Source: Hymenobacter volaticus
GTDB taxonomy: Bacteria > Bacteroidota > Bacteroidia > Cytophagales > Hymenobacteraceae
Reading direction: 5' to 3'
Length of the DNA: 64,000 nucleotides
NCBI RefSeq assembly: GCF_022921055.1
Contig: NZ_CP095061.1
Span: 3,015,501-3,079,500 of the forward strand
Both the position numbers and the translations under genes were made by a program. Position 1 is the first letter of the stretch. Every line of letters starts with the position of its first letter. The notes under the pieces are model-generated. The model was not told where the DNA came from. It did no database searches and saw only the letters and a list, made by a program, of their open reading frames with translations. Below, one piece after another: positions 17,408-27,589 of this stretch.

Positions 17408-17840
17408 AAAATCAGTGATAAGAAAGGTTTGTTGTGTCTAGCAGTGCTGGCGACTAGGTGCACAAACATACACGAGCTACCTTGCAAAACAAGGTACTAT
17501 TTGAAATTATAACACGTCCATTTTTTTCAGCCTCACACACAGAGGGTTTGTGTTCGCGAGGGTAAGTTATTCCTCTAACAAGAAGCAAGAGAAAGCAAGT
17601 TGGGCACTCCCGAAGGGCGCTATTAGCCCTGCTAGCTGCCTATTCGTTAATCCCATCGGCTGGAGGTAGACAGTAACTTAAAAAGACAGTTCCAATACTT
17701 TAATCCGGCCCCTATTGGGCACTGCCCACCTATCCTAGCCTAAAAAGTTAATCTTCGTACGCATTTTTTCGTACTCCCCGACATAGCCCCTCGCATCGCC
17801 TCTTTCCGCCCTGCCCTTGCCCATTTTCCAGCTCCCCTCT
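17408..17840. other. divergent intergenic region, hydrolase / DACNV gene
   Basis: 433 bases between two diverging genes. I see no convincing gene, strong hairpin or repeat. Both promoters should lie here. Confidence 0.45.
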
Positions 17841-19291
17841 ATGTGGGACCACCAAAGTCTGTTTCGCGTCTCGGCCCAGTTGTTTGCCGATGGTATATTC
17901 AATCTGCTCGATCGTAATCTGAAGCCCGAGGTATTCTTGCTAGGGCTAGCTACTGCCCGCGAAACCGACGAGCCACAGGCAGTGGTGGTAGAACCCACTA
18001 CTTTGCGCTACACTCCCGCCGACTTTGCGGGCGTCAAATCCTTAGCTGCGGCTCTGGAGCCAGATGGGCCGCGCGACGTGGTGTATCACCTGCACCCTGA
18101 CGACCACGACCGGTACGAGAAGTTGCGCTGGTATGCTTTGCTGCAACAAGCCACCGAGCGGACGTTAACCGAGCTTTGTGCTACTCAGGGCGAAAACCGA
18201 ATTAGTTTCTGTTCGGTGCCCATCAGCCTCTATGGGTATTTGGTGGTTATTGTGCTACAGCTGTCCCGCGAAACCTACGAGGCCTATTATACCCTGCCCG
18301 AGCTTAGCACTGGCAATCGTCCTACGTCGCTAGTCAATGCCACTGTGCAGGAATTTTTGCAGGACTGCAGTCGTGCCCTTCGCGAATCGGATACCGACGA
18401 TGACCGACCCGTACTCGACCGCGACTACAACGAGGTGTTGCGCGCTGCAGGTCGCAGCTTTATGCTGCGCGTGGCCGCCGGCACGCATGGCCTCTATGAT
18501 GCCTGCAACGGCGTAGCAGCCCTTCGCCACGAAGGCGACGAAGGTGTGGGCACCATGCTCGTGGCGCGTCGGCATCACCCGGCCATCGTGTCGGTGCTTA
18601 CGCTGGAAAGTCCGATTCCGCTGCGCGACCACCGCCGCATACGCAAATTATTGGAACTGAGTGAAGACCGGACCGCCTTAGTTTCCGATGCCACCGACGT
18701 GTTCGGGCTTGGCTACCTCGTGGCCCCCGACGACCAAGCCTACGAGCCGATTTTCACGGTACATTTCACTCGCCACTACAGCTGGGAACTCACCCACGAC
18801 AACCAGCTCATGATGAAGGTGGTTTCGAACACCCCCCGCCTCCCCAAGGTCGCGTCGATGCTAGCAACTTCGCTCAGGCGGTGCAGCGTGTGTTCCCCTA
18901 CCTCGACAACGTGGCCATTGATTATCTCTGGGAACTCACTCAACGCGCTACCTCCCAGCCCAACGGCACCATTCTGGTGGTGTCGGAAGGCGCGGCTCAG
19001 GAAGCGGCTCGACTCACCCGCCAGTGCTTTCGGGTGGTTCCTCGCCTGATGACGCCTTCTGTTTTGCGTCTGGTTACCAACATTGACGGTGCTGTGCTTA
19101 TCGAGCCCCACGGCGACTGCTATGCCATCGGCGCCATCCTCGACGGCCTCGCCACCGAGAAAGGTGACTCCTCCCGCGGTTCGCGTTACAACTCGGCTCT
19201 GCGCTATGTGGAAAGCAGCCGTTACCCATGCTTAGCCGTGGTTGTGAGCGAAGACGGCCTCATCGATCTATTGCCACCGATAAGAAGGTAA
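17841..19291 (+). CDS. DisA-N-like (DACNV-type sensor) protein, one frameshift
   Basis: Corrected length 483 residues. The C-terminal 150 residues resemble the diadenylate cyclase (DisA_N) fold: D-G-A (about 415) followed by a strand and turn G-D-C-Y-A-I-G, then R-G-S-R-Y-N-S-A-L (about 446) where true cyclases have R-G-x-R-H-R-A-A, then V-V-V-S-E-D-G. D-G-A is kept, but R-H-R has become R-Y-N, so cyclase activity is doubtful. This layout fits the DACNV group, proposed in the literature as nucleotide-sensing. The frame breaks at GG 18848-18849; one G joins L-P-K-G to R-V-D-A-S-N. ATG 17841 (M-W-D-H-Q) was chosen over an upstream TTG. Confidence 0.72.
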
Positions 19292-21221: not shown

Positions 21222-22721
21222 CTACACTTGCGGAAGGGTGACAATAAACTCGGTGAATTGCCCTTCTTGCGAGACTACTGCGAGCGAGCCGCCGTGGCCT
21301 TTCGTTACAATGTCGTAGCTCAACGACAAGCCTAAGCCAGTGCCTTCGCCAGTAGGCTTCGTGGTGAAGAAGGGTTGAAATATCTTTTCCCGAATTGCCG
21401 CCGGAACGCCCATTCCATTGTCGCGCACCCGCACTTCCACCTGCTTTTTACAGCGGCGCGTACTCACTTGCACGTTGGGCTTGTAGTCGGGGCCCTGGGT
21501 TGCGGCTTTCTTCCACACAGCGTAAAAAGCGTTGGTCAGCAAGTTGAGAAAGACCCGGTCTATTTCTTGAGGCACAACTTCCACTAAGCCCACTGCCGGG
21601 TCCAGTTGCGTGGCTAGCGTGGCGTTGAAGTTCGGAGCTTTGGCCCGCAGACTGTGGTAGGCCAACCGCAGGCTTTCCTCGACCAGCGCATTCAAGTCGG
21701 TGGGGGTGGGTTCTCCTTGGCTGGTACGGGCATGGGCGAGCATGTCCCGCACAATAGTAGCAGCTCGGCGCCCGTGCTGCTTGATCCGCTCCTGGTTCTG
21801 GCGCAGGTCTTCGGCGGTGCTGAGCAGAAAAGCCCGATCTAGTTCCGGCCGGTTCACCTCCGCTTCTAACTCGGCTGCTAGTTCGGCACTTACTTCCGAG
21901 AAGTTGTTGACGAAGTTCAAGGGGTTTTGAATTTCGTGGGCAATACCGGCCGTCAACTCACCTAAGGAGGCCATCTTTTCGCGTTGTACGAGTTGCGCCT
22001 GAGTTGCCTCCAAGGAGCTTATGGCTTCGGCTAGCTGCTCGGCTTGCTGTTCCAGTATCTCCCGCTGCGTGTTCGAGGTGTTTTTCTCGGCTTCAATGGT
22101 TTTGCGCTGCAAAAAATCAATCCGGCTGTTCACTTCGAAGAAGTAGCAGGTTGCGGAGGCTACAAAATGTGCCGATAGAAGAAACACGTGGTTGTTGATA
22201 AGCAGGAGCCTGTCCTGCACCATGTCCTTGTCGAACAGTGCTACAACAAGGTGCGCCAAGAAGATCAAGGTATTGGTTGTCAAGCCGTACCAAAACCGGA
22301 GTCTTGCCCACGCCCCCGTAAACATCATGATGATAATCAGGCCGACGTAGTAATGATTATACGCCAGCTCCAGAGGCTGGCCTTTGTGGATGACCCGAAT
22401 AACTGTGGCGGCTACGATGATGCAGGCGCAGCTGGTTATCAATTGCAGATAGACCCGCAGCCTACCCAGATAAGAGAAAATGATAGCCGCTAGAATAGCC
22501 GGACTGCCCACCAAAAACCGGTAAAACCAAGCCGTAGAAGTGGCACTAGGTATTGCAATAACATCGAGCAAGCCAAACGAGGCATAAAGAAACAAGCCCG
22601 CCGTTAAGGATACTTTAATGGTGTTCAGATTGGCGACGTAGTAGTATTTGGCATATTCTCGCTCTATTTCTTTAGGAAAACGAAGGCGCCAAGCGGCGGG
22701 CTCTAGTTGTAAATAATCCAT
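21222..22721 (-). CDS. membrane sensor histidine kinase
   Basis: 499 residues. The first 190 residues hold about six membrane segments forming an unclassified membrane sensor (7TM-like). A coiled coil (about 210-245) leads into the HisKA region with the phosphorylatable His in A-G-I-A-H-E-I-Q-N-P (about 264) and a HATPase domain with D-N-G-M-G-V-P and G-T-G-L-G-L-S-L-S-Y. The long P-L-N-F-V-N-N-F segment is typical of Bacteroidota kinases. No response regulator is adjacent, so its partner is unknown. Confidence 0.9.
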   Translation of the reverse strand: MDYLQLEPAAWRLRFPKEIEREYAKYYYVANLNTIKVSLTAGLFLYASFGLLDVIAIPSATSTAWFYRFLVGSPAILAAIIFSYLGRLRVYLQLITSCACIIVAATVIRVIHKGQPLELAYNHYYVGLIIIMMFTGAWARLRFWYGLTTNTLIFLAHLVVALFDKDMVQDRLLLINNHVFLLSAHFVASATCYFFEVNSRIDFLQRKTIEAEKNTSNTQREILEQQAEQLAEAISSLEATQAQLVQREKMASLGELTAGIAHEIQNPLNFVNNFSEVSAELAAELEAEVNRPELDRAFLLSTAEDLRQNQERIKQHGRRAATIVRDMLAHARTSQGEPTPTDLNALVEESLRLAYHSLRAKAPNFNATLATQLDPAVGLVEVVPQEIDRVFLNLLTNAFYAVWKKAATQGPDYKPNVQVSTRRCKKQVEVRVRDNGMGVPAAIREKIFQPFFTTKPTGEGTGLGLSLSYDIVTKGHGGSLAVVSQEGQFTEFIVTLPQV

Positions 22722-22840
22722 ATTCTGTCGGCGGAGCTGTAGCTGAAAACGGTAGCGGTACCCTTCTGTACTAGCTTCCGTAGTGCGCGCTTATGGGAGT
22801 AAACCAATCTACCACAAGCAGACAGAATAGACAACTTTTT

Positions 22841-22935
22841 AGGGTGTGTGGACACTAGGGGTTTCTAATCAAAACAGGACTGTCACGCTTCGACTGCGCT
22901 CAGCATGACGTTCTTTTGTTTGCTGTCCACACCCT
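22841..22935. repeat. short element with terminal inverted repeats
   Basis: The ends 22841-22854 and 22924-22935 are inverted copies (AGGGTGTG-TG-GACA against TGTCCACACCCT). Inside, 22888-22909 matches one arm of the palindromic repeats at 34.5, 46.4 and 55.4 kb. The 95-base size and terminal repeats resemble a MITE. It sits in the 310-base gap between the kinase and barrel genes; the rest of that gap holds only the hairpin at 22971-23020. Confidence 0.5.
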
Positions 22936-22970
22936 TGTAATAGTGGGTTGGAGATTTGCTGCATAGCTTT

Positions 22971-23020
22971 ACCTGTCAAGTAGCCAACCAAAACAGGTTT
23001 CAGTTAACTACTTGACAGGT
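22971..23020 (-). terminator. hairpin after the barrel gene
   Basis: Arms 22971-22983 and 23008-23020 pair perfectly over 13 bases with a 24-base loop that can extend the stem by AAC/GTT. It begins 11 bases beyond the stop of the minus-strand barrel gene. Confidence 0.55.
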
Positions 23021-23031
23021 TGTTACACACT

Positions 23032-25686
23032 TCAGAATTGAAATCCTAAGCGAACCACTGTCATGTTTTCGTTGCGGGAGAGGCCGTAGGTGCCCACCAA
23101 TACAACCCGGCGAAATGGTTCTGCCCACAGCCCGCCGCCATAGCCGTTGTGCCAAGTATCGGAGTGCTCCTTGTCGATCCACACCCGGCCCACGTCGTGG
23201 AAGCCGAGTACTCCTATTTTAGCCGATACCAGCATCGTGTTCAGCGTCCCTAAGTAAGCTCTGAATTCCAGGTTGTTGTAGACGCTGTTCTCGCCCGCAA
23301 AACGCGTGCGGCGGTAGCCGCGCAGGTTGGAAAGACCACCGAGGGTAGCGGCCTGGTAGAATTCATAGTCGCTGAAGTTCAAGGTGCCGCCCACGCGGGC
23401 CGCCAAGGTGATGCCAGGTGCAATGGCGGGCGTCCAGAACCCTGATGCCTCCGAAGTGAGCTGCGACAGGTTGGGGGCTTGGCTGTTCATGCCCCGCATG
23501 CCTGTATAATCGGTGCTCCAGAACACGCCTTTGGTGGGGCGCCAATCGTTGTTGCGCGTATCTACGATGTAGCCCGCCTTTAAGCCGGCATAGTGCTTGG
23601 GCTCAAACATGGTGTCCAAAAGCCCGTTGGCCTCGGCCATTTGTTCGATAAACCGCCCCCGCGTCCGCTCCACCCGTACGCGCTGATAAATAGGGCCGGC
23701 GTAGAACTGCTGCGGTCCGGCCCGGCGGCGCAACAGGGCTTGAAACGCCACGTTGTTGTAGCGTACCCGGTAGAAACGGATGCCAGCGCGCTTGTTGAAG
23801 CTAGTTTCGTTGCCGAAGCCAAAGAAGTTGCGCACGTAGTTTGGAGCCTGCACATCGGCCCGCACCAGCAAATCGAGCTTTCCGGTTATGTGGTTGAAGT
23901 CGCCGGCGTAGCGGAAGCTGTAGGCGCCGGTGCCAAGTGCCACATTGGCTTGCAGGCGGTGAATCATGGCCCAGGGCGCTTTGCGGAAGCCCGGCTGGCG
24001 GATTTCCACCCCGGCACCGAGGAATAGACCATCGTCGGGGTTGTAGGCCCACGGCAAGAGCGGCCCCACGTACTTGTAGCGGAAGGCTTCGCGGTTGTAG
24101 CTGTTGACAAGCGAGTCCGGGGACGTTCTGTTTCGGCTTTCGGCATTGAGTTGCAAGTCGTTGCCGGTAGGCGTGTCGTATACCACCGTGCGCCGGCCAA
24201 GTCCGGCAACGCGAGAATGGTCGATGAGCACGTCTTCGCCTTCGCCCCCAATCAGGCGCACGATGGGGCTCTTGTTTACTTCCCCACTTACTTCCAGCTT
24301 GTCGCGGCCGCCGTACCCATATAGGCGGATTTCCTGCGTTTCGTCGGTCAGAAAAGTACGCTCGTACAAAGGGTCGCCCGTTGATGTGCCACCGTCTGCC
24401 AGGGCGTAGATCTTGACGCGGGTATGCTCGTCGTCGAGCCGCTCGACTTTAAAGTATTCGGGTTGGTCGCTGCCCGTAATGTCGACTTCGCGCGCCAGAA
24501 AGCGGTAGTACTTCTCGGCGTAGCTTGGCAAAGCATCCCGGTTGGATTTCAAGTTGGCAACGATAGTTGGGCCAGATAGCTGGTAGATGGAATCGGGTAG
24601 CTGGCGGATGGCTTTTTCGATTATGTCATCGGTCAGGCGGGTTTGCATTTCCTGTGCTACCGCTATCCAGTCCTCCCGCGTGGCTTTAGTCAGAAAAGAA
24701 CGGTCGAAGTACCGGGCGCTGAACATGAAGGTATTCACATTGCGCATCGTCCCATCGAACCCCTGGACGGCGGGCACGGCCCAGTCGCGGCTAGCAAGGT
24801 TGGGCAGCAGCCCCTGGTTGACAAAGAAGGCTTGGTCTCGGTCGCGGGGTACAGCACGCAGCAATATGCCGCCCGTGGGCTGCGCGTAGGCCAGCCACCG
24901 CCACTGGTCTTCGTGCCGGTCGAAATCGGCGACTATCACATCAAACAGTCGGGCCCGTACCAACTCGCGCTGATCGACTTGGTTTTTCGAATCGGCGCGC
25001 AGCAGTTCCAGCACTTTGTCGGTGCTGTAGTTCTTTTCCAGCGTGCGCCCCGTAAACGAGGCGGGCACCTGTGGGTCGCGCTCCTCCAGAATAGCCAACG
25101 TATTGGCGAATATGGGTTTAAACTCGCCTAGTCGTTCATCATCGGGCACATACACCAGTTCGGGGTTGGTGTGTCCTACTCCAGCAGCTTCGGCCAAAGT
25201 TGGGATGGTAAGCGCGGCATAAGGGTGCGCCGCCGACACTTGGTCCTGCACCACTTTGGCTGCCAACGTATTGCGGAGTTCTTCGCTTAATACTTGCTCG
25301 GTGTTTTTCTCGATGGAGCGCAACACATATTCGCGGCCATTGGCGGCCCGCAGGCGGAGCGACTTGGTCTGCTTGCCTCCCCCCTGCTTTAGCGGCTGCA
25401 AGCCTCCTTGCGAAGTGCTAAGATTGAGCACTGGCACGCGGACCCGTCTCTGCCACTCTTGCCGGTAATTGCGGCCCAGGAGCATAGTCTTGAATTTTCC
25501 CGCCTGATACTGCTGGCTGGCTTTTACCATCACGCTCTCCTGTTCCTTGAACGGCGGCGCGCTCGGCTTGGCAGTCGGCGCCGACACGGTGGAGGTGGCA
25601 ATGGGGGAAGAGGTGGCGGGAGTTTGAGCGTGGGCAGCGAAGATGGTTTCAACGCCGAGAACAGTGAAAAGTAAAAGTGTCCGCAT
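23032..25686 (-). CDS. BamA-like outer-membrane barrel with kinase-like periplasmic domain
   Basis: 884 residues from ATG 25686; the signal peptide (M-R-T-L-L-L-F to H-A-Q-T) decides the start. Residues about 105-290 look like a CotH/HipA-type kinase fold: a beta hairpin ending Y-V-L-R-S-I-E-K (about 119-127, possible ATP lysine), a loop D-F-D-R-H-E-D-Q-W-R-W (254-264) and P-R-D-R-D-Q-A-F (280-287, possible metal Asp). Residues about 290-540 include G-G-R-D and G-G-E-G-E-D turns. The rest (about 540-884) is a beta barrel ending in Phe (V-R-L-G-F-Q-F) with a BamA-like L-R-G-Y motif. Kinase activity is inference; the region may only bind ligand. It follows a HlyD-like gene by 80 bases. Confidence 0.8.
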   Translation of the reverse strand: MRTLLLFTVLGVETIFAAHAQTPATSSPIATSTVSAPTAKPSAPPFKEQESVMVKASQQYQAGKFKTMLLGRNYRQEWQRRVRVPVLNLSTSQGGLQPLKQGGGKQTKSLRLRAANGREYVLRSIEKNTEQVLSEELRNTLAAKVVQDQVSAAHPYAALTIPTLAEAAGVGHTNPELVYVPDDERLGEFKPIFANTLAILEERDPQVPASFTGRTLEKNYSTDKVLELLRADSKNQVDQRELVRARLFDVIVADFDRHEDQWRWLAYAQPTGGILLRAVPRDRDQAFFVNQGLLPNLASRDWAVPAVQGFDGTMRNVNTFMFSARYFDRSFLTKATREDWIAVAQEMQTRLTDDIIEKAIRQLPDSIYQLSGPTIVANLKSNRDALPSYAEKYYRFLAREVDITGSDQPEYFKVERLDDEHTRVKIYALADGGTSTGDPLYERTFLTDETQEIRLYGYGGRDKLEVSGEVNKSPIVRLIGGEGEDVLIDHSRVAGLGRRTVVYDTPTGNDLQLNAESRNRTSPDSLVNSYNREAFRYKYVGPLLPWAYNPDDGLFLGAGVEIRQPGFRKAPWAMIHRLQANVALGTGAYSFRYAGDFNHITGKLDLLVRADVQAPNYVRNFFGFGNETSFNKRAGIRFYRVRYNNVAFQALLRRRAGPQQFYAGPIYQRVRVERTRGRFIEQMAEANGLLDTMFEPKHYAGLKAGYIVDTRNNDWRPTKGVFWSTDYTGMRGMNSQAPNLSQLTSEASGFWTPAIAPGITLAARVGGTLNFSDYEFYQAATLGGLSNLRGYRRTRFAGENSVYNNLEFRAYLGTLNTMLVSAKIGVLGFHDVGRVWIDKEHSDTWHNGYGGGLWAEPFRRVVLVGTYGLSRNENMTVVRLGFQF

Positions 25687-25766
25687 AGGTTGCAGGGTTA
25701 CAATGGACGCGTTATTATTTCCGATAAAGCCGCCACCCGAAGTGGTCAGCCTGATGGATGCCTGCC

Positions 25767-26453
25767 TTAGCGCTTCGCCACAGACGGCGGCAGTTGACGG
25801 GCATTCCACGAGACGCTAGCGTGCATCAGTGGCCGGATTAAGGGCGCAACAGCGTTTCGCACGGTAACTAAAACCACGGTTTTCGGTTGGGGAAGTGTTT
25901 GCCGCTCGATGCGTTCCACTAGGCCGGTAAAGGTGCGTCCGGGCATTTCCGCCACGCGAACTACCACCGGGTCGCAAACCTTGATTGAGCGCCCCACCTG
26001 CGACGACACCACCAGAGGCACTTTCACATGCGATACGTCCTGCAACATGGCCACGCGCATACCCGCCCGCACCCGATTGCCAACCGCTACGTTTCTTTTC
26101 ACTAGGAAGCCGGCGTGAGGAGCGAGTATGTAGTTGCGATTGAACTCGTTAGAGTACGAGTTGCTTTCCAAGAACTTCAACAGGATTTGCCTGCCCCGTA
26201 CGTAGTCGCCGTCGGCAAAGAACACCTCTCTAACCCAACCATGCCCTGGCGACATCAAAGGCGACGTAGCAATGGCTTCAACGGTACCCTTAGCAGTTAC
26301 AAGGTTAGCAGCCGATTGGTAACCAGCCACTTGTTGAAGTGGCAGGCGTGGCTTAACCGAGGCCGTTCGGTGCTGAGCCCCTAACGGATACGCCAAGATG
26401 CAACTGAGCAGAACAGTGGCAACAAAAGAAGGAGAGAGGAAAAGTAGACCCAT
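25767..26453 (-). CDS. short HlyD/RND-type periplasmic adaptor-like protein
   Basis: 228 residues, about half the length of usual membrane-fusion proteins. A signal peptide (about 1-25) precedes a lipoyl/barrel-sandwich region split around a very short linker: G-W-V-R-E-V-F-F-A-D-G-D-Y-V-R-G, then I-L-A-P-H-A-G-F-L-V-K-R-N-V-A-V-G, then a beta-barrel domain. The long coiled-coil hairpin that meets TolC is missing. It lies 80 bases upstream of the barrel/kinase-like gene on the same strand, and no RND pump or ABC transporter is present. I infer that it works with that barrel, not with an efflux pump. Confidence 0.75.
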   Translation of the reverse strand: MGLLFLSPSFVATVLLSCILAYPLGAQHRTASVKPRLPLQQVAGYQSAANLVTAKGTVEAIATSPLMSPGHGWVREVFFADGDYVRGRQILLKFLESNSYSNEFNRNYILAPHAGFLVKRNVAVGNRVRAGMRVAMLQDVSHVKVPLVVSSQVGRSIKVCDPVVVRVAEMPGRTFTGLVERIERQTLPQPKTVVLVTVRNAVAPLIRPLMHASVSWNARQLPPSVAKR

Positions 26454-26790
26454 AAAATCCTCGATTGGGTATGTAGGAAACCATCATCACAACCAGCACC
26501 AGCTTTTTCGCGCACTTTTCCGGCGCATTCTTAAAAATGCGCTGCCATTTATCGACAGTGAAAGTGCAGGCACCACAGCTATAGGTGAGCAAGAGTGCGC
26601 AGGAGAATATCTTTAAATGAAGATACTCGTAATCTAATTTTATATCAAATAATTACCACAAAAACTGTCAACCTTTTTTGATAGTACACGTAGCTGTTCA
26701 GCTTACTTGTGACAAGCAGCTATTTCTATAAAACTGATTTTGCAATGTTTAGGCCGCGAAAAGGCAAGCAGCCCAGATACATCAAGCTAT
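26454..26790. other. AT-rich intergenic region upstream of the HlyD-like gene
   Basis: 337 bases, AT-rich around 26620-26740. It should hold the promoter of the HlyD-barrel pair. I see no gene, repeat or clear hairpin. Confidence 0.4.
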
Positions 26791-26901
26791 TTATTGATGA
26801 GCATGGTACCAGAGCGCAACGACCAACCCGATACCAGCCACAACTGCCATTAGCACATATATGACTCTGTTCTGGCGGGGTTCTATTTCGCTCTGTTTCA
26901 T
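26791..26901 (-). CDS. 36-residue single-span membrane protein
   Basis: ATG 26901 opens M-K-Q-S-E-I-E-P-R-Q-N-R, followed by one hydrophobic span of about 18 residues (V-I-Y-V-L-M-A-V-V-A to V-A-L-W) and a short tail W-Y-H-A-H-Q before TAA. The charged start and clean span are what a real small membrane protein looks like. It lies upstream of the HlyD-barrel pair on the same strand, with a gap of over 330 bases, so co-transcription is uncertain. Confidence 0.5.
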   Translation of the reverse strand: MKQSEIEPRQNRVIYVLMAVVAGIGLVVALWYHAHQ

Positions 26902-27151
26902 TGTAGTAGGAGCCCAATCTTATTGTCGTCTTAACGCGGTTTACGCTTATAGGTTAGGTAGGCGCGTGTTGTGAAATTGATTTCTTTTTGTGTTGAACTC
27001 AACTCCTAAAACGCTCTTAAACCGCTGGCGCTTTTTGGTTTATTTACTAGAAGGTTGCTTGTAGGGCATCGGGCATCGGATCTTATTCGTTGCCTTCCAT
27101 AGCTGGTTGGAGTGGCTGTATTATCAGGCAAAGGGTGAAGCAACTACCCAC

Positions 27152-27159
27152 TACCTTTG
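27152..27159 (+). promoter_or_regulatory. possible -7 promoter box of the lipoprotein-SCO operon
   Basis: TACCTTTG matches TAnnTTTG exactly and ends 4 bases before the GTG start at 27164, suggesting a leaderless or near-leaderless transcript. No clear -33 TTG is present. Confidence 0.35.
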
Positions 27160-27163
27160 CGGC

Positions 27164-27589
27164 GTGAAAAAGCTTTGTTTGTTACTCCTATTGCCGTTGC
27201 TTACTGGACTGCCCGCCTGCCTTTCGTTGCAGAGCGACGAGCAAAAAGCCGAGGCTGCCGAAAAAGCTGTGCTGGCCAAACACGACGAATTAATGGCCCA
27301 AATGGATCAGCTGACCATTCTGCGACAGCAGCTCCAGAAAACGCCCGGCCCCGATACGGTAGCGGCCGGCCGCCAGCGCCGCGCCCTGCTCGCCTCCGAT
27401 GCCGCCATGATGGATTGGATGCACCGCTACCGCAAACCCGCCGATACCGTGGCCGTAGCCCGACGCCTCATTTACTTTGCAACCCAACAGAAAAAAATCG
27501 ATTCGGTGGCGGGCCTGTTTCGCACTAGTATCGACTCGGCGCGGTTATTAGTACAGACCGCGGGAACCCCCACATCTTCCGCTCAATAA
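27164..27589 (+). CDS. small lipoprotein, first gene of the SCO operon
   Basis: 141 residues from GTG 27164. The signal sequence K-K-L-C-L-L-L-L-L-P ends in the lipobox L-P-A-C, so the mature protein is lipidated. The rest is helical and charged, with a coiled-coil-like Glu/Lys/Gln-rich stretch (about 27-60). I recognise no family. The stop lies 4 bases before the SCO gene, so it probably belongs to the same transcript and may act in cytochrome oxidase or copper handling. Confidence 0.65.
   Translation: MKKLCLLLLLPLLTGLPACLSLQSDEQKAEAAEKAVLAKHDELMAQMDQLTILRQQLQKTPGPDTVAAGRQRRALLASDAAMMDWMHRYRKPADTVAVARRLIYFATQQKKIDSVAGLFRTSIDSARLLVQTAGTPTSSAQ

Follow-up and report, generated by a model that had tools for sequence, protein, structure and literature searches.

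What does a kinase-like domain do in front of an outer-membrane barrel? This question is raised by a gene on the reverse strand of the Hymenobacter volaticus contig NZ_CP095061.1, within positions 3,015,501 to 3,079,500. This whole stretch of 64,000 nucleotides, which we analysed, is referred to as the window, and the product of the gene as the window protein. The host genome measures 7.1 Mb, and the closest named matches to the protein come from Hymenobacter. The original prediction, made from the sequence alone, had described a signal peptide, kinase-type loops in the order seen in CotH, HipA and FAM20, and a C-terminal beta barrel ending in Phe. It had suggested that the domain might phosphorylate cell-surface proteins or sugars, or serve for binding as a dead fold. 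The motifs it named are found at residues 120-127, 254-262 and 280-287, and Phe is the last residue; its spacing of 16 residues between the loops is slightly off, as P280 lies 18 residues after W262. Our analysis indicates that the protein almost certainly consists of a kinase fold on an outer-membrane barrel. Its best explanation, which we hold to be probable, is an atypical kinase that is anchored in the outer membrane and faces the periplasm.

A predicted kinase fold precedes the barrel

We compared an AlphaFold2 model of residues 47-440 (predicted local distance difference test (pLDDT) 90.8, predicted template modelling score (pTM) 0.87) with solved structures, a check which the original prediction had proposed. 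Kinases occupy the top rows in both searches. Foldseek finds CtkA as the best match (expect value (E) 1.5e-5), followed by HipA and PI4K-II, with Golgi casein kinase lower down. VIA-align ranks PI4K-II first, followed by CotH, CtkA, VPS34, HipA and Fam20, at sequence identities of approximately 10-14%. The two-lobed architecture of kinases is present in the predicted model when it is set against the solved structures. Computation on the model shows the domain to have the fold that is common to the PI4K-II, CotH, CtkA, HipA and Fam20 kinases.

Searches of Pfam, NCBIfam and PDB sequences with the single window protein returned barrel families only, or nothing, and profiles were therefore needed. 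When family profiles were used in hmmsearch, CtkA is the top match among PDB sequences (E 0.013 and 0.012). It is aligned on the DRH motif, its segment GNFDRHNGNWGF lying under the catalytic loop of the family. In hhalign comparisons CotH scores 29.7 with the catalytic and the metal loop both in register, versus a maximum of 22.6 in 28 controls (8 unrelated profiles and 20 column shuffles). A further weak match, to PDC-M03A of PADLOC (E 0.00082, residues 214-262), covers the catalytic loop.

The kinase residues are conserved

The first conservation set, an alignment of 121 full-length proteins, includes close relatives. We therefore also used 140 distinct domains from 110 of 296 genomes spread over the phylum. 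R123, K127, E201, D254, D256, H258 and D284 are invariant in the 121 proteins, and D282 differs in two. R123, K127, E201, D249, D254, D282 and D284 are likewise invariant in 44 of 44 sequences, D256 being kept in at least 90%. Across the phylum-wide set, the residues which the original prediction had singled out are retained in most domains: K127 in 135, the catalytic Asp (D256) in 128 and the metal-binding Asp (D282) in 131, the two Asp standing in the right order in the CotH register. R123 is kept in 130 domains, E201 in 133, D254 in 137 and D284 in 129, and K127, D254, D256, D282 and D284 are all intact in 122 of the 140. R123 and K127 are both conserved, and it may be the former, not the latter, that faces the nucleotide. 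Purifying selection is strongest in the kinase-like domain; no other part of the window gene is as constrained. By computation, the acidic residues of the catalytic and metal loops are shown, at the level of sequence, to be kept by selection. The resemblance to CotH, HipA and FAM20 is supported, in that neither the fold comparison nor the residue survey spoke against a kinase.

A barrel behind a probably periplasmic domain

An Omp85 superfamily profile matches the C-terminal barrel of the window protein, which is close to TamA and BamA, and no POTRA domain is matched by Pfam in the protein at E up to 10. Between the kinase-like domain and the barrel, residues ~400-535 are beta-rich and hardly covered by structure matches of the full-length model. 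Residues 1-48 have a pLDDT below 50 in the same model. The protein is predicted to be exported, with its kinase-like domain facing the periplasm. The published description of PlpD, a patatin-Omp85 protein, reports that the enzyme-type domain in front of its barrel was shown to stay periplasmic (PMC11116518). By analogy, this topology supports, and does not prove, a periplasmic domain in the window protein. Family members that stand alone have N-termini which by eye look lipoprotein- or anchor-like. The features of the gene are listed in Table 1.

Table 1. Coordinates within the window of the kinase-like/Omp85 gene, its parts and its upstream neighbour.
Feature	Position	Strand	Basis or remark
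Kinase-like/Omp85 gene (protein P0001)	23032..25686	(-)	884 residues; coordinates include the stop codon
Signal-peptide-like N-terminus, residues ~1-20 (..AAHA/Q)	25627..25686	(-)	By-eye reading of sequence
Kinase-like domain, residues ~50-398	24493..25539	(-)	AlphaFold2 model and atypical-kinase matches
R123..K127 in YVLRSIEK, predicted nucleotide-side strand	25306..25320	(-)	Conservation
E201 (LEER)	25084..25086	(-)	Conservation
Catalytic-loop equivalent, D254-W264 (DFDRHEDQWRW)	24895..24927	(-)	Register with CotH, HipA (hhalign) and CtkA (hmmsearch)
Metal-loop equivalent, P280-F287 (PRDRDQAF)	24826..24849	(-)	Register with CotH PYDYDN; conservation
Beta-rich domain, residues ~400-535	24082..24489	(-)	Secondary structure in full-length model
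Omp85 beta barrel, residues ~536-884, C-terminal Phe	23035..24081	(-)	
HlyD/CusB-type periplasmic adaptor-like gene, directly upstream	25767..26453	(-)	PF16576, E 6.4e-13

Many relatives combine the domain with a phosphatase

The 140 matches come from 110 of the 296 phylum genomes sampled, and the family is present in all 101 genomes sampled from the genus. Its commonest form (73 of 140) has a phosphatase region with at least three of five calcineurin motifs, then the kinase-like domain, then the barrel. Another 42 have the barrel without an N-terminal region of phosphatase type, as does the window protein, and nine combine the barrel with a long N-terminal region bearing fewer than three phosphatase motifs. 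The barrel is absent from 16, one of which is a fragment at a contig end, leaving 15 barrel-less members. PF00149 exceeds its cut-off in four of six relatives scanned, and the Pfam scan did not find it in the window protein. Moreover, the phosphatase domain of a paralogue in the same genome matches the purple acid phosphatase 1qfc (E 6.2e-5). None of the five kinase residues is missing from the 73 relatives that have at least three of the five phosphatase motifs. A quick tree covering 138 of the 140 domains, with several long branches, gives 13 changes for the phosphatase, at least six for the kinase and five for the barrel. We also considered whether kinase loss follows phosphatase loss; a test corrected for ancestry was not significant (7 independent pairs, median p 1), and the idea was rejected.

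The host genome has five family members. Besides the window gene, these are a full form, a copy whose phosphatase is degenerate and which has Gly at 256, and a divergent pair of stand-alone genes, one of which has lost DRH. The full phosphatase-kinase-barrel paralogue (L048, 4304-9703) lies divergently to an HD-PycTM gene and has ppk1 nearby. In the stand-alone pair (L044, 6809-8404 (-) and 8610-10220 (+)), one protein is lipoprotein-like with an intact DRH and the other has SRR; such intact and SRR copies occur together in two further genomes of the genus as well (L171, L176). Elsewhere, two barrel genes lie in tandem (L088, 1976-4612 and 4626-7187), the kinase-like domain being decayed in the first and intact in the second, and a stand-alone kinase-like gene (L045, 5655-8165 (-)) adjoins a gene which by eye is of the carboxypeptidase-regulatory-like/barrel type. 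One stand-alone member (P0189) bears the database name 'HipA domain-containing protein', yet it has no Pfam match at E up to 1.

Neighbours of the window gene and of its relatives

The HlyD-like gene, which encodes 228 residues, precedes the window gene on the same strand. We compared eight related loci drawn from the best matches in the genus Hymenobacter. In six of them a relative of the HlyD-like gene is the immediate upstream neighbour, in the same orientation, and in two it is missing. One of these six loci is nearly a copy of the entire region, and the other five share no other closely alike neighbour. Thus, the HlyD-like gene is probably an operon partner of the window gene.

The wider family was surveyed in 80 named loci, the best 80 of 593 found by the pattern DWDRH. 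Because of this selection they are unusable for counting DRH conservation. Their neighbours include HD-PycTM (50 loci), an SdiA-regulated lipoprotein (22), ppk1 (20), GAF (14), DUF6268 (12), SixA (9) and a nucleotidyl cyclase (6), identified by Pfam except for SixA, which was named from its sequence. Around 100 loci of the phylum sample, where flanks were shorter, we found HD-PycTM in 35, a second lipoprotein group in 24, a cyclase in 18 and ppk1 in 7. The lipoprotein near other family members matches SdiA-regulated above the cut-off (E 2.9e-5) and Phytase-like below it (E 0.002).

For ppk1 itself we examined 80 of the 110 domain-bearing genomes, hand-picked mainly by thinning well-sampled families, and found the gene in 77. 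A family gene is at most 10 kb away from ppk1 in 16 genomes, in 9 of 21 families, and at most 15 kb away in 21 genomes; 0.74 and 1.11, respectively, would be expected under uniform placement with contig breaks ignored. In the host genome, both ppk1 genes are within ~7 kb of a family member other than the window gene. The link to polyphosphate is purely genetic and comes from relatives, not from the window copy.

Other features were noted in the window. An open reading frame at 17817-19049 (+) encodes the sensor domains DACNG and DACNH (PF21752, PF21750); another, at 18881-19291 (+), overlaps it in a different frame and could continue it in a frameshift-like manner. A sensor histidine kinase gene (21222-22721 (-)) lies downstream of the window gene on the same strand. 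Among the eight loci its position is kept only in the near copy (L261), and a distant match is near the gene in L264. An Rfam scan of 22000-27500 gave no matches, and promoter-like and terminator-like sites are at chance level.

Weighing the evidence for a periplasmic kinase

Several results weigh against an outer-membrane-anchored kinase. Even at an E limit of 10, the window protein matches no kinase family of Pfam, this being also true of CotH (PF08757), which was absent from the 25 of 26 Pfam families listed for 42 alignment members. Fam20C (PF06702) matches one of the 42 (E 0.13) and not the window protein. The E-values of CtkA are weak when taken alone. The hhalign score of HipA (20.6), with its loop in register, is not above the controls and is therefore not taken as evidence of kinship, so that a HipA relationship by profile comparison was dropped. 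HipA_C of Pfam does match 13 of the 42 members (best E 0.0015) and leaves the window protein unmatched, but its two detailed rows, with 12.0 and 12.5 bits, are below the curated cut-off of 30.5, and other families that probably match by chance do so equally often or more (DUF1598 in 20 of 42). Moreover, the link between phosphatase and intact kinase residues loses significance once ancestry is counted over supported branches. An HlyD-like relative is near in only 1 of the 80 named loci, and the partnership is thus at most specific to the branch of the window protein. No ppk1 gene adjoins the window gene, and of the 100 phylum loci with their short flanks only the seven mentioned have ppk1 nearby. 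Finally, the periplasm is generally regarded as free of adenosine triphosphate (ATP). A paper on PlpD likewise describes a periplasm without ATP (PMC11116518).

The alternative that survives best, though we consider it clearly less probable than not, is another transfer chemistry, such as AMPylation, or a substrate that is a small molecule (lipids, sugars or inositol compounds) instead of a protein. Kinase folds can perform other transfers. The highest-ranked solved fold is that of a lipid kinase, PI4K-II, and the SdiA-regulated and sub-threshold Phytase-like matches of the neighbouring lipoprotein of other members would suit such a substrate. CotH and CtkA, however, are protein kinases and score within ~2 Z units of PI4K-II, and the substrate is not decided by sequence. 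The small-molecule half of this alternative overlaps with our preferred explanation, and the confidence we place in each is not exclusive of the other.

It is unlikely that the domain is a pseudokinase, in which the fold is kept for binding or as a periplasmic scaffold, serving the barrel or nucleotides without phosphotransfer. Key residues are lost in 18 of the 140 relatives, a point which also counts against the kinase reading: 11 are barrel proteins without a phosphatase region, three are stand-alone with SRR for DRH, as in one host-genome paralogue, three are barrel proteins whose phosphatase is degenerate and whose residue 256 is Gly, and the last is a fragment cut at a contig end. The barrel is still present in 14 of the 18, and ATP is not known from the periplasm. 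A minority of relatives thus appear pseudokinase-like. The window copy, in contrast, retains all key residues within the most constrained part of its gene, and the losses are few, as are the changes on the quick tree.

It is improbable that the protein serves mainly in outer-membrane assembly or secretion, as BamA and TamA do, with a front domain that only takes the place of POTRA domains. The closeness of the barrel to TamA and BamA would fit it, but the same domain is found in the 15 barrel-less members, and conserved catalytic residues are needless in a POTRA substitute. That the fold match is an artefact of the common two-lobe shape is hardly credible, even though the 50 best Foldseek rows have modest template modelling scores (0.16-0.52) and large root-mean-square deviations.

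A model for phosphate transfer at the envelope

We thus return to the periplasmic kinase. We lean towards the window protein being an active phosphotransferase. Its domain would bind a nucleotide or another phosphate donor together with a metal and pass phosphate to a molecule of the envelope. The family form found most frequently carries a calcineurin-type phosphatase, purple-acid-phosphatase-like in the one member tested, on the same chain, so that kinase and phosphatase would both work on one pool at the membrane. The window copy has the kinase half alone, its phosphatase having presumably been lost, and probably works with the small HlyD-like periplasmic adaptor. The ppk1 link of other members suggests phosphate or polyphosphate metabolism as the setting. 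In a more far-reaching version, which is rather improbable as a whole, one outer-membrane protein would both add and remove phosphate in an ATP-poor periplasm, with polyphosphate or a product of its metabolism, not ATP, as the donor, and the window copy would be an offshoot that carries the kinase alone and is partnered by an HlyD-like protein of its own. Feeding by polyphosphate would explain why family genes travel with ppk1.

If the model is true, Bacteroidota-type bacteria would be able to regulate molecules of their envelope through phosphorylation that is reversible and takes place outside the cytoplasm. The family may thus be a sign of a system for handling phosphate in the envelope that has so far gone unrecognised. 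This poses the question of what donates the phosphate in a periplasm generally regarded as ATP-free. Since the family is common in both the phylum and the genus, a test in one species would speak for many.

Relation to known systems

A kinase domain on an Omp85 barrel was not found among the listed open-licence papers, subscription papers and preprints lying outside the search. Among Omp85 proteins, Heinz and Lithgow (2014; PMC4104836) distinguish a 'Metallo' subfamily, whose PF00149 domain they term a metalloprotease, and a group without an N-terminal domain whose barrels resemble that subfamily; a term search of the main text of that paper gave no occurrence of 'kinase'. With its N-terminal PF00149 domain and Omp85 barrel, the 'Metallo' subfamily, as described there, resembles the full form of our family, and the two are probably the same. 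The window protein differs from it by the absence of PF00149. Purple or tartrate-resistant acid phosphatases match the phosphatase domain of the host-genome paralogue, a domain that is absent in the window protein. PlpD, as far as its description goes (PMC11116518), also has an enzyme-type domain ahead of an Omp85 barrel; unlike the window protein, it carries patatin-like and POTRA domains, with no kinase or phosphatase domain described. PI4K type II, CotH, CtkA, HipA and Fam20 have the overall fold of the window domain, and CtkA and CotH share with the family, in register by sequence, the D..DRH..(N/Q) and D-x-D-type loops. Compared with these kinases, the window domain is without a Pfam match over the cut-off, appears to be exported and is fused to an outer-membrane barrel.
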